Position numbers and translations under genes: made by a program | Source: Treponema sp. | Lineage (GTDB): Bacteria; Spirochaetota; Spirochaetia; Treponematales; Breznakiellaceae | NCBI GenBank assembly: GCA_031255285.1 | Contig: JAIRSU010000093.1 | Span: 1 to 35,379 of the forward strand | Reading direction: 5' to 3' | Length of the DNA: 35,379 bases | Part shown: positions 5,881 to 33,170 of the stretch, one piece after another | Layout of the letters: each line of letters starts with the position of its first letter | Position numbering within the stretch: position 1 is the first letter of the stretch | The notes under the pieces: generated by a model | Database searches by the model: none | Seen by the model: only the letters and a program-made list of their open reading frames with translations | What the model was told of the DNA's origin: nothing

Positions 5881-7077
5881 CTAATCTTCACCATTTTCAA
5901 CAAGACGTACACTGACAACACCGTTTATACTTTTGATGCGTTCCGCTACGTCAGTGGGAATTTTTTGTTCTGTATCAATGATGTTATAGGCGTTATCATA
6001 ACGATGGTGGTTTACCATATCGGAAATATTAACGTCTGCACTCGCAAGTAAGGTAGTGATTTGTCCCACCATGTTCGGTACGTTACGGTTAATGACTATC
6101 AAGCGGTTCGGCGAGCGTCTGTGCCGCTCAAGGCGGCATTTGGGGAAATTTACCGAATTTACGATAGCGCCCTCTTCAAGGTAATCTATTATTTGACGAA
6201 CCGCCATGACCGCGCAGTTATTCTCCGCCTCCGGCGTTGATGCACCCAGATGTGGAATACAAAGTGCCGACGGACAAGCGAGTAATTCAGCGGTCGTGAA
6301 ATCCGTTACATAGGCCGCCAATTTTCCCGTGTTAAGCATTGCAATAAGGTCAGTCTCATTGACCAGACCTCCGCGGGCGAGATTAACGAGCCGTGCACCT
6401 TTCTTCATAATACGGAACTTTTCCGCATCCAAAAGCCCTTTAGTCGTATCCGTCAGCGGCAGGTGCAGGGTAACGTAATCCGTTTTTGCAAGCAAGCCTT
6501 CGAGCGTATCTTCCCGCTGTACCATCCGCGACAAGTTCCATGCGGCCTCAACCGAAATATAAGGGTCGTAGCCGACAACGCTCATCCCAAGATTAACAGC
6601 ATCGTTTGCAACCATCACACCAATAGCACCAAGCCCTATTACACCCAGAGTCTTACCTTTGAGTTCAGGTCCCTCGAACTTTGACTTGCCCTTTTCAATG
6701 AAATCAGGCACTTCGTCAGCTTTGTCCTTGAGGTTCAAAGCCCAATTTACGCCGGAAACGATTCTACGCGATGCCAGAAGCAGACTTGCAATAGTCAATT
6801 CCTTCACCGCATTAGCGTTACCGCCTGGAGTGTTGAACACCACAATGCCTCGTTTGTTACATTCATCTACGGGTATGTTATTGTAGCCCGCACCCACCCG
6901 TGCTATGGCTTTAACAGACGTAGGCAACTCAACACCATGCAAATCCGCACTCCGTACGAGTATCGCATCAGGATTCGGTATGTCGCTCGCAACCTCGTAA
7001 TGGTCCCGCGAAAAAAGATCAAGCCCTTCTGCGGATATTTTATTCATCGTACGTATCTTGAACATTTGTCTTTCCAT
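5881..7077 (-). CDS. serA: D-3-phosphoglycerate dehydrogenase (SerA)
   Basis: SerA oxidises 3-phosphoglycerate to 3-phosphohydroxypyruvate with NAD+, the first step of serine synthesis. The 398-residue protein has a split catalytic domain around a Rossmann domain with the dinucleotide motif GLGAIG (residues 148-153). The expected catalytic Arg235 (NLARGG), Glu264 and His276 (IPHLGAS) are all visible. The last ~75 residues (LIVINRNVPNMVGQITTLL... to the end) form an ACT domain, which in this family usually mediates serine feedback. The ATG at 7077 has AAGGAG about 8 bases upstream. It lies 79 bases downstream of serC on the same strand with no promoter obvious between them, so serC-serA is probably one operon controlled from the serC promoter. 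Confidence 0.95.
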   Translation of the reverse strand: MERQMFKIRTMNKISAEGLDLFSRDHYEVASDIPNPDAILVRSADLHGVELPTSVKAIARVGAGYNNIPVDECNKRGIVVFNTPGGNANAVKELTIASLLLASRRIVSGVNWALNLKDKADEVPDFIEKGKSKFEGPELKGKTLGVIGLGAIGVMVANDAVNLGMSVVGYDPYISVEAAWNLSRMVQREDTLEGLLAKTDYVTLHLPLTDTTKGLLDAEKFRIMKKGARLVNLARGGLVNETDLIAMLNTGKLAAYVTDFTTAELLACPSALCIPHLGASTPEAENNCAVMAVRQIIDYLEEGAIVNSVNFPKCRLERHRRSPNRLIVINRNVPNMVGQITTLLASADVNISDMVNHHRYDNAYNIIDTEQKIPTDVAERIKSINGVVSVRLVENGED

Positions 7078-7156: not shown

Positions 7157-8281
7157 CTAATTTCTAATATTTTTCTCAAACCTTTCCATAAAGCCAATCA
7201 ACGCCTTGACACCCTCAATGGGCATGGCGTTGTAGATGCTTGCCCTCATTCCACCTACAAGTCGATGACCCGCAAGGTTTACCAAGCCTTCCGTAGCCGC
7301 CTCTTGTACGAACCGCTTCTCCAAGCTTGATTTTTCGTCAGAAGAATGGTACACAAAAGGGACACCCATCAGAAAAGGAATATTCATCAGGCTTCGGAAT
7401 GGCTTTTCAATGGGCGACAGGAACACTTTAGAATTATCGAGGTAATCATAAAAGAGTGTAGCTTTTTCACGGTTGCGTTGAGCCATTACTTCGACGCCCC
7501 CCTGTTCCTTAACCCACTCAAGTACCAAACCGATAATGTAGATACCATAACACGGTGGTGTGTTGTACATTGAACCATCTTTGACGTGAACGTCGTAGCG
7601 TAGCATAGTCGGAACCCATGACGGTACATTCCCAATGAGGTCTTCGCGGATGATAACGACTGTAGTTCCGGCTGGACCGAGGTTCTTCTGCGCCCCTGCA
7701 TAGATAACACCGAATCTTGATACGTCGAGTGGCTCGGACAAGATGCAACTGGATGCATCCGCCACAAGAGGGCTGCTTTCTGTCTCCGGTAGTTTGCTCC
7801 ACTTTGTGCCGATTATGGTATTGTTTAGGGTGATGTGGTAGAAAGCTACATTTTTCTGCGGAGGTGGAGCATCCGGTATATAGACATACCCTTTGTTGCG
7901 CGAGGAGGCGACGACATCAACGTCGATATATTTTTCAGCTTCCTTTATCGCCTTGTCCGCCCAGATGCCGGTGTCCACATAGTCGGCTTTCTTACGCGGC
8001 ACTCCCTGCTCCACACCCGCCAGATTAAGTGGAACCATGGCGAACTGAAGAGAAGCACCCCCTTGCAGGAAAAGCACACGGTAATTCATGGGTATATCCA
8101 TGAGTTCGCGCAAAAGCGACTCGGTTCGCTCGATAATGGGTTTATAATCCTTTGAACGGTGGCTCATTTCCATGACAGACTGCCCTGTGTCGTCAGCGTC
8201 CATTATCTCAACACCAGCTTTCTCTAGAACCTCCAACGGCAACATAGAGGGACCGGCGGAAAAGTTAAATACTCTTTTCAT
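7157..8281 (-). CDS. serC: Phosphoserine aminotransferase (SerC)
   Basis: SerC is a PLP enzyme that transaminates 3-phosphohydroxypyruvate with glutamate to give O-phosphoserine, and can also act in pyridoxal phosphate synthesis. The frame is open upstream to 8320, but the ATG at 8281 is chosen because GGAG lies 5 bases before it and the family's conserved start (RVFNFSAGPSMLP) follows at once. Length is then 374 residues, near the usual 360-370. The PLP lysine is K199 in YAGAQKNLGPAG. The C-terminal GHRLVGGMRASIYNAM block is typical. A perfect palindrome ending 10 bases upstream of the ATG covers the promoter -10 and matches the Rex operator, so control by NADH/NAD+ ratio is inferred. No serB is visible nearby. 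Confidence 0.95.
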   Translation of the reverse strand: MKRVFNFSAGPSMLPLEVLEKAGVEIMDADDTGQSVMEMSHRSKDYKPIIERTESLLRELMDIPMNYRVLFLQGGASLQFAMVPLNLAGVEQGVPRKKADYVDTGIWADKAIKEAEKYIDVDVVASSRNKGYVYIPDAPPPQKNVAFYHITLNNTIIGTKWSKLPETESSPLVADASSCILSEPLDVSRFGVIYAGAQKNLGPAGTTVVIIREDLIGNVPSWVPTMLRYDVHVKDGSMYNTPPCYGIYIIGLVLEWVKEQGGVEVMAQRNREKATLFYDYLDNSKVFLSPIEKPFRSLMNIPFLMGVPFVYHSSDEKSSLEKRFVQEAATEGLVNLAGHRLVGGMRASIYNAMPIEGVKALIGFMERFEKNIRN

Positions 8282-8290
8282 CTTTACTCC

Positions 8291-8312
8291 TATTGTGAAA
8301 TATTTCACAATA
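8291..8312. promoter_or_regulatory. Perfect 22-bp palindrome matching the Rex redox-repressor operator
   Basis: The palindrome is perfect over 22 bp. Its core TTGTGAAATATTTCACAA (8293-8310) agrees fully with the published Rex consensus TTGTGAA-N4-TTCACAA. Rex is a repressor released from DNA by NADH. The site overlaps the predicted serC -10 hexamer and lies between the promoter and the serC ribosome-binding site, the right geometry for repression. The regulator gene itself is not in the window. Another palindrome-binding factor cannot be excluded. Confidence 0.7.
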
Positions 8313-8330
8313 AAAGACATCTTTTGTCAA
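8302..8330 (-). promoter_or_regulatory. Predicted serC-serA promoter
   Basis: Minus-strand consensus -35 TTGACA (8330-8325), 17 bp spacer, -10 TGAAAT (8307-8302). The -10 falls inside the Rex-like palindrome, so bound repressor would block RNA polymerase. Confidence 0.5.
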
Positions 8331-31985: not shown

Positions 31986-33170
31986 ATGAAACCAATGATT
32001 CGCAATAACATCTGTCTGAACAGTCATGCAGAAGGCTGTGCGGCTGTTGTGAGGCGGCAGATAGCTTATGTTGAGAACAATAACGTTTACGAAAAGCCGC
32101 CGAACGCCGCAAAGCTCGCGCTTGTGCTGGGCTGCTCAACAGGCTATGGGCTGGCAAGCCGCATCGCCTTGGGTTTTGGTTATGGCGCCGCTACGGTAGG
32201 CGTGTCGCTTGAAAAGCCCGCCGCGCCGAATAAAAACGGAACGCCTGGATTTTATAATAATCTCGCCTTTGACTATGAGTGCGCAAAGGTCGGAATTATA
32301 TCAAAGACCTTGAACGGAGACGCTTTCTCTGACGCTGTAAAGGCGCTGACCATTGAAGCCGTCAAAGAAATAGCAGAGAAGCTTGAAAGTTGCACCCAAA
32401 AGATTGATATGGTTGTGTATTCGCTAGCGTCTCCTGTGCGCGTGGACCCTAAATCAGGCGTCATGTACAAATCCGTCATCAAGCCTATCGGAACTGCGTT
32501 CAGCGGAACATCAATTGATATAATGACGGGAAGGCTGTTCACCGCTAATGCGGAACCTGCATCGAAAGAGGAAACCGCCGCTACGGTCAAGGTTATGGGC
32601 GGCGCGGATTGGGAATTATGGATAGACGCACTCCAAAACACAGGTCTTCTCGCGGAGAACGCCAAAACAATCGCCTATACCTATATTGGTCCAGAATCTT
32701 CTTGGGCGATTTATAAAAACGGCACGATAGGACGAGCAAAGGAAGACCTTGAACGCGCGTGTAGAGCTATCAACGCTGGATTCGCAGGTTCAGAGCGCAA
32801 AGCTTACGTCTCGGTCAACAAAGCGCTGGTCACGCGGGCAAGCGCGGTTATCCCAGTTATCCCATTATACGTATCCTGCCTCTTCAAAGTGATGAAAGAA
32901 AAGGGACTGCACGAGGGATGTATCGAACAGGCGGTACGGCTCTTTAGAGAGCGTATCTACTCTGTGGATGGAATCACGCTGACCGACCATGCGGGGCGCA
33001 TCCGCATCGACGATTACGAGATGCGGGAAGATGTACAGAAAGCCGCGGCTGACCTCATGCAGAGCGTAACACAGGAAAATGTCCTGTCCTCAACCGACGT
33101 CTCTGGGTTTAAGCATGATTTTCTGGAGGCTCACGGTTTCGATGTCCAAGGCGTGGATTATGAAGATTAA
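31986..33170 (+). CDS. fabV: Trans-2-enoyl-CoA/ACP reductase (FabV/TER)
   Basis: FabV reduces trans-2-enoyl-ACP or -CoA with NAD(P)H; the Treponema denticola homologue TER is a well-studied crotonyl-CoA reductase. The 394-residue length is right. The NADH fold has GCSTGYGLASR (residues 49-59) and the catalytic Y-x8-K motif is Tyr243/Lys252 (IYKNGTIGRAK), as in TER/FabV. The C-terminal HGFDVQGVDYED is typical. Between fabZ and accB it most likely completes fatty-acid elongation, though use in butyryl-CoA fermentation is possible. The ribosome-binding site is weak, and expression may depend on coupling with fabZ. Confidence 0.95.
   Translation: MKPMIRNNICLNSHAEGCAAVVRRQIAYVENNNVYEKPPNAAKLALVLGCSTGYGLASRIALGFGYGAATVGVSLEKPAAPNKNGTPGFYNNLAFDYECAKVGIISKTLNGDAFSDAVKALTIEAVKEIAEKLESCTQKIDMVVYSLASPVRVDPKSGVMYKSVIKPIGTAFSGTSIDIMTGRLFTANAEPASKEETAATVKVMGGADWELWIDALQNTGLLAENAKTIAYTYIGPESSWAIYKNGTIGRAKEDLERACRAINAGFAGSERKAYVSVNKALVTRASAVIPVIPLYVSCLFKVMKEKGLHEGCIEQAVRLFRERIYSVDGITLTDHAGRIRIDDYEMREDVQKAAADLMQSVTQENVLSSTDVSGFKHDFLEAHGFDVQGVDYED

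Follow-up and report, generated by a model that had tools for sequence, protein, structure and literature searches.

The serC–serA genes of a Treponema genome (Breznakiellaceae, Spirochaetota) are preceded by a perfect 22-bp palindrome that is very likely the operator for a dedicated serine-operon repressor of the Rex family, here called Rex1. The locus lies on contig JAIRSU010000093.1, whose full 35,379 nucleotides are hereafter called the window. The linkage of rex1 to serC in relatives, the presence of the site before serC where the two genes are unlinked, and a match between a DNA-reading residue and an operator base together make a strong comparative case, and Rex1 very probably represses serC–serA.

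A predicted Rex operator directly upstream of serC

The features of the locus are as follows:

5881–7077, minus strand: serA, phosphoglycerate dehydrogenase, 398 aa (curated models, Pfam domains)
7157–8281, minus strand: serC, phosphoserine aminotransferase, 374 aa (curated model and homologues)
8287–8290, minus strand: GGAG ribosome-binding site of serC (read from sequence)
8291–8312, no strand: predicted Rex1 operator, 22-bp perfect palindrome
8293–8310, no strand: 18-bp core TTGTGAAATATTTCACAA, which fits the published Rex consensus without mismatch
8302–8307, minus strand: tentative -10 hexamer TGAAAT within the operator (inferred; 17-nt spacer, four of six consensus bases)
8325–8330, minus strand: -35 hexamer TTGACA, separated from the operator core by 14 nt (read from sequence)

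The palindrome, TATTGTGAAATATTTCACAATA, is the longest perfect one in the window (the runner-up is 14 bp), and about 0.009 of 22 bp would be expected by chance given the window's base composition. The Rex consensus is published as TTGTGAAW4TTCACAA (PMC2883068), and the core matches TTGTGAA-N4-TTCACAA with no mismatches; across the 2,150,191-base assembly, where about 0.011 exact matches would be expected, the serC site is the single copy. As other targets in the same genome we considered 13 sites with two mismatches (L003–L015), most of which fall within open frames and a few of which lie close to some frame's start, and none was retained.

SerC scores 501.6 bits against a curated cut-off of 253. 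The best model for SerA, PGDH, gives 260 bits, under its full-length cut-off of 454, and the NAD-binding and catalytic domains both exceed their Pfam cut-offs. The longest open frame of serC begins at 8320, upstream of the palindrome, and family homologues align from 8281. Read along the minus strand, the order is thus TTGACA (8330–8325), 14 nt, the core (8310–8293), GGAG and the serC ATG (8281). A Rex operator would be expected at or just 3' of a promoter; here the exact consensus follows a perfect -35 hexamer by 14 nt, and the promoter itself is weak, TGAAAT (8307–8302) being the sole hexamer 17 nt off. The distance from TTGACA to the site is identical in those unlinked relatives that are closest to the window's genus.

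The palindrome just before the serC ribosome-binding site, the fit of its core to the Rex consensus and the naming of the two genes had all been put forward in an earlier note on this DNA, and they hold: GGAG directly adjoins 8291, and the curated models agree on serC and serA. That note also placed the palindrome over the -10 box. TGAAAT does lie inside the operator, but with only four consensus bases of six, and a promoter scan that required A at position 2 called no serC promoter. The search that it suggested, for the same 18-mer before other NAD-linked genes, turned up no further exact copy in the whole assembly.

A perfect palindrome this close to a ribosome-binding site could also fold into a hairpin in the leader RNA of serC. 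If the inferred promoter is right, the transcript would start inside the palindrome, so that the RNA would miss one arm; moreover, linked operons of relatives (below) carry the identical box before rex1, far from serC. A hairpin is thus extremely improbable. Elsewhere in the window, an open frame at 31986–33170 has a sequence that seems to resemble a FabV-type enoyl reductase.

Rex1 in the window's genome and its family

One Rex homologue was detected in the window's assembly (G000, 78.9% complete), a 201-residue protein (P0001) at G000:C85:4141–4743. It exceeds the thresholds of the NCBIfam Rex models NF003995 (148 bits against 126), NF003996 (140.8 against 138) and NF003994 (130.9 against 130), and falls on either side of the Pfam PF06971 cut-off of 27, at 27.7 in the genome search and 25.6 in the protein scan. 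The structure model of an 84% identical Rex1 (L195; pLDDT 87.9) combines a winged helix with a Rossmann domain as in solved Rex proteins, and its 39 best Foldseek matches in the PDB are all Rex chains (E 4.7e-18). In the window's genome rex1 follows what is presumably an rlpA/SPOR-like gene, which it overlaps by 14 bases (L001:651–1502 and 1489–2094). No operator precedes rex1 there, the best match having six mismatches.

Among the Rex1 proteins of the family, the base-reading residues R46 (44/44; Thermus numbering throughout) and K47 (43/44) are kept, as are the GxGxxG motif and the second-strand Asp D112 (44/44 each). Two features count against Rex1 as the reader of the operator: the usual recognition Gln is missing, 42 of 44 proteins having Thr there, and just two of 44 have the wing Arg. 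In one family genome (G065), another Rex homologue lies near rex1 in head-to-head orientation and is very divergent, at 28% identity (L178:1846–2480).

rex1 and serC are linked across the Spirochaetota

We surveyed 78 Breznakiellaceae genomes, including Breznakiella homolactica and Gracilinema caldarium, and found SerC in 68 and a close Rex1 in 46. In 39 of these 46, rex1 immediately precedes serC in the same orientation, 18–238 nt away. The other seven are the window's genome and G022, G065, G059, G047, G021 and G026. In G021 (L239 by coordinates) serA comes straight after rex1, with no serC between them (L239:2992–4808), an operator precedes rex1, and a serC only 48% identical sits elsewhere in the genome; in G026 a search for serC found none.

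The arrangement extends beyond the family. When 295 Spirochaetota genomes were searched with a profile, the scores formed two humps, with rex1-like matches at or above about 143 bits and the rest at or below about 121. Sixty-two of the 67 rex1-like matches outside the family were read (G362, G352, G173, G162 and G340 were left out), and serC lies beside rex1 on the same strand in 51 of them. Among the best 80 of 227 confirmed named loci, rex1 and serC are linked in 58. Some rex1 genes have neither serC nor serA nearby (L342, L335, L338 and L339; L299, L306 and L307), which counts against a role confined to serine; some of these retain a hybrid operator and some have none. Because most of the genomes are metagenome bins that are not complete, absences carry limited weight; the tables of residues and sites depend on alignments and guessed start codons of our own.

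The operator stays with serC where rex1 has left

Exact copies of TGTGAA-N4-TTCACA number 44 in 41 of the 78 family genomes: 32 before rex1, five before serC and seven elsewhere. The 37 at rex1 or serC stand 13–302 nt upstream, all in genomes that carry rex1, and none of the 23 family serC genomes without a detected rex1 has an exact site at serC. A partial exception, which counts against Rex1 as the reader of the site, is G009 (98% complete), where the near-match TTGTGAAATATTTCACTG precedes serC and a canonical Rex, but no rex1, was found. The usual form of the operator in the family is [TC]TGTGAAATATTTCACA[AG], just 3' of a TTGACA...TAnnnT promoter, and its inner AA/TT pairs are retained in most relatives. 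In nine rex1 genomes (G042, G068, G026, G014, G027, G005, G057, G062 and G072) neither rex1 nor serC has an exact site before it; G014 and G057 have a site with one mismatch in the 12 core bases and G027 and G068 one with two, and in G042 and G062 rex1 begins at a contig end. Of the seven exact family sites away from rex1 and serC, which also include L112, L115 and L116, four were read at gene level and set aside as targets: L123 and L183 lie inside open frames, L182 between convergent genes and L129 near a contig end.

In the 58 linked loci among the best 80 of 227, the 350 nt upstream of rex1 hold an exact site in 49, a site with one mismatch in three and with two in two; of the remainder, one has three mismatches, one has four and two have no upstream sequence. 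Of 280 background windows, not one came within two mismatches. Outside the window's family, 10 of 43 rex1 genes in family f2 have no recognizable site, which again counts against the Rex1 reading.

In the other 22 of these best 80 loci, rex1 has no serC beside it. A SerC search in 21 of these genomes (all but L239) found serC in 17. Two were set aside: L356, which has no upstream sequence, and L364, which by its coordinates is the serC of a truly linked operon (L257, same assembly as L222). In all 15 readable cases, including G022, G065, G059 and G047 from the family survey, the site stands 8–42 nt before the serC ATG with at most one mismatch in the 12 core bases. The operator thus stays with serC when rex1 leaves. 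On the tree unlinked rex1 genes occur in about three places, the forks between them being weakly supported. Both things on which the earlier note had staked its reading are therefore present in the data, a rex homologue in the genome (P0001) and a palindrome kept before serC or rex–serC in relatives.

These cases bear on whether the site serves only the autoregulation of rex1, with control of serC an incidental read-through. In most genomes the site does precede rex1 rather than serC, but the 15 unlinked genomes contradict that account, and the rex1 of the window's genus has lost its own site, leaving autoregulation alone with a negligible probability.

Residue 47 and the operator base change together

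In the available portion of the report on Thermotoga maritima Rex bound to DNA and NAD+ (7WB3), whose fold Rex1 shares, Arg48 and Lys49, corresponding to R46 and K47, read the operator, and Lys49 touches the second G of the half-site (PMC8836258). Across the phylum, residue 47 of Rex1 is K, R, H or Q. We searched 108 rex1 rows for sites with the discriminating base masked. All 18 rows with His47 have T for G, 13 of them in both arms (TGTTAA-N4-TTAACA) and five in one arm. Among the 69 rows with K, R or Q and a site, 64 have G in both arms, four and one are mixed, and none has T in both. No site was found in 19 rows with K or R, and in two rows no residue aligned at position 47.

Residue 47 and the operator base read by its T. 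maritima equivalent thus appear to have changed together, a neat match. The tree requires only about two changes to His, each together with T, so a test of independent pairs has no power, and this counts against the strength of the match. In f2, TGTTA(A/T)-N4-TTAACA with His47 occurs at L290, L296, L297, L302, L303, L305, L309, L310, L313, L314, L317, L325 and L327; hybrid operators that combine a T-type arm with a G-type arm stand at L329, L335, L338, L339 and L342.

This covariation also bears on a different class of regulator. TGTGA-N6-TCACA is the textbook CRP motif, and the serC site fits both it and the Rex motif. The window's genome has cNMP-binding-domain frames (four matches on two contigs), one of them a 211-residue CRP-like protein. 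Its sole match to a Crp-type helix-turn-helix, however, is a 119-residue open frame whose matching fragment also scores with MarR and ArsR models. The site follows the presence and linkage of rex1, most relatives retain the inner AA/TT pairs, and the discriminating base varies with residue 47 of Rex1. Binding of the serC site by a CRP/FNR-type regulator is accordingly quite unlikely.

The NADH switch and the canonical paralogue

Assignment of the operator to Rex1 leaves the question of what Rex1 senses. In T. maritima Rex, according to the text available, Tyr100 and Asp191 bond to each other upon NADH binding (PMC8836258). Unlike that protein, most Rex1 of the window's family have replaced both: Tyr98 is kept in four of 44 and Asp188 in one of 44, and P0001 has Phe at both positions. 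The pair occurs together in one of 46 Rex1 in the window's family (f1) and none of 43 in f2, but in three of three in f43 and four of six in f33. The Tyr98/Asp188 pair of an NADH-switched Rex is thus wanting from Rex1 of the window's family, and NADH sensing by Rex1, and with it the link that the earlier note drew between serine synthesis and redox state, is unproven, the dinucleotide motif being kept and the pair lost.

The canonical Rex of the family, rex2, retains these residues (Tyr98 in 22 of 25 and Asp188 in 25 of 25). This paralogue, rather than rex1, might read the site at serC, which would then belong to an ordinary NADH regulon; the operator does equal the classical Rex consensus. 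Yet the searches detected rex2 neither in the window's genome nor in G022 (93% complete), and, as noted above, serC genomes without rex1 have no exact site before serC. The 25 rex2 promoters themselves lack the box (best match three to seven mismatches) and have ATCGATAAA-like words instead. Control of serC by rex2 is, on this evidence, distinctly improbable. We looked for a TGTGAA box shared among those 25 promoters and found none; the ATCGATAAA-like words stand in about 9–11 of them (e.g. L175, L177, L179 and L191), and perhaps represent a different operator.

For Rex1, the most economical account starts from an NADH-switched Rex linked to serC, with later loss of the switch, although the tree is not securely rooted. 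We hold the operator and target of Rex1 firmly and its ligand loosely. A fuller history can be offered only tentatively: a global NADH sensor may have become a single-operon serine regulator, the Breznakiellaceae and f2 may then have dropped the Tyr/Asp switch, with Rex1 answering to NAD+ alone or to another ligand, and one lineage may have moved from TGTGAA to TGTTAA in step with the change to His.

A probable dedicated Rex for serine synthesis

The earlier note knew of no description of serCA as a Rex target, but reports from Caldicellulosiruptor precede it, so control of serCA by Rex is in itself not novel. In the available part of one, SerC and SerA are among the most conserved Rex targets, with sites upstream, in 14 Caldicellulosiruptor genomes (PMC8579813); in the portion available of another, C. 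bescii Rex reportedly controls a class V aminotransferase encoded in one operon with phosphoglycerate dehydrogenase (PMC6391272). As in the window's genome, the Caldicellulosiruptor sites precede a serC/serA-type operon. Unlike here, the accessible text describes one global Rex that also governs hydrogenases, pyruvate:ferredoxin oxidoreductase and others, whereas the spirochaetes have a separate paralogue within the serine operon, and further exact sites are almost absent from rex1 genomes. In the Thermotogales, a serine-pyruvate aminotransferase is a Rex target in five genomes (Ravcheev 2012, via the part available of PMC6391272), which likewise places a serine-related aminotransferase under Rex, but it is described there as serine utilization under a global Rex. 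Staphylococcus aureus Rex shares the operator TTGTGAAW4TTCACAA, but its targets are anaerobically induced and released by NADH (PMC2883068). A literature search covering few subscription journals found no published Rex dedicated to a serine operon and no spirochaete Rex; the dedicated paralogue predicted from these comparisons would be what is new here.

In most Spirochaetota with rex1, the gene appears to head a rex1–serC–serA operon with an operator over its start, and Rex1 would therefore repress its own gene along with serine synthesis. The rex1 of the window's genus seems to have moved behind the rlpA-like gene and lost its own operator, while serC–serA retained one directly upstream. Judging by its position, a Rex1 dimer across this promoter would block RNA polymerase, and release would most likely act through the NAD(H)-type site of the Rossmann domain.

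Overall, these data point to a predicted, highly specific spirochaete regulator of the supply of serine, and hence of glycine and one-carbon units. They suggest that a global redox regulator may have given rise to a local paralogue whose sensor site is altered, and that the rex1 lineages may offer a natural experiment in the co-evolution of a repressor and its operator.
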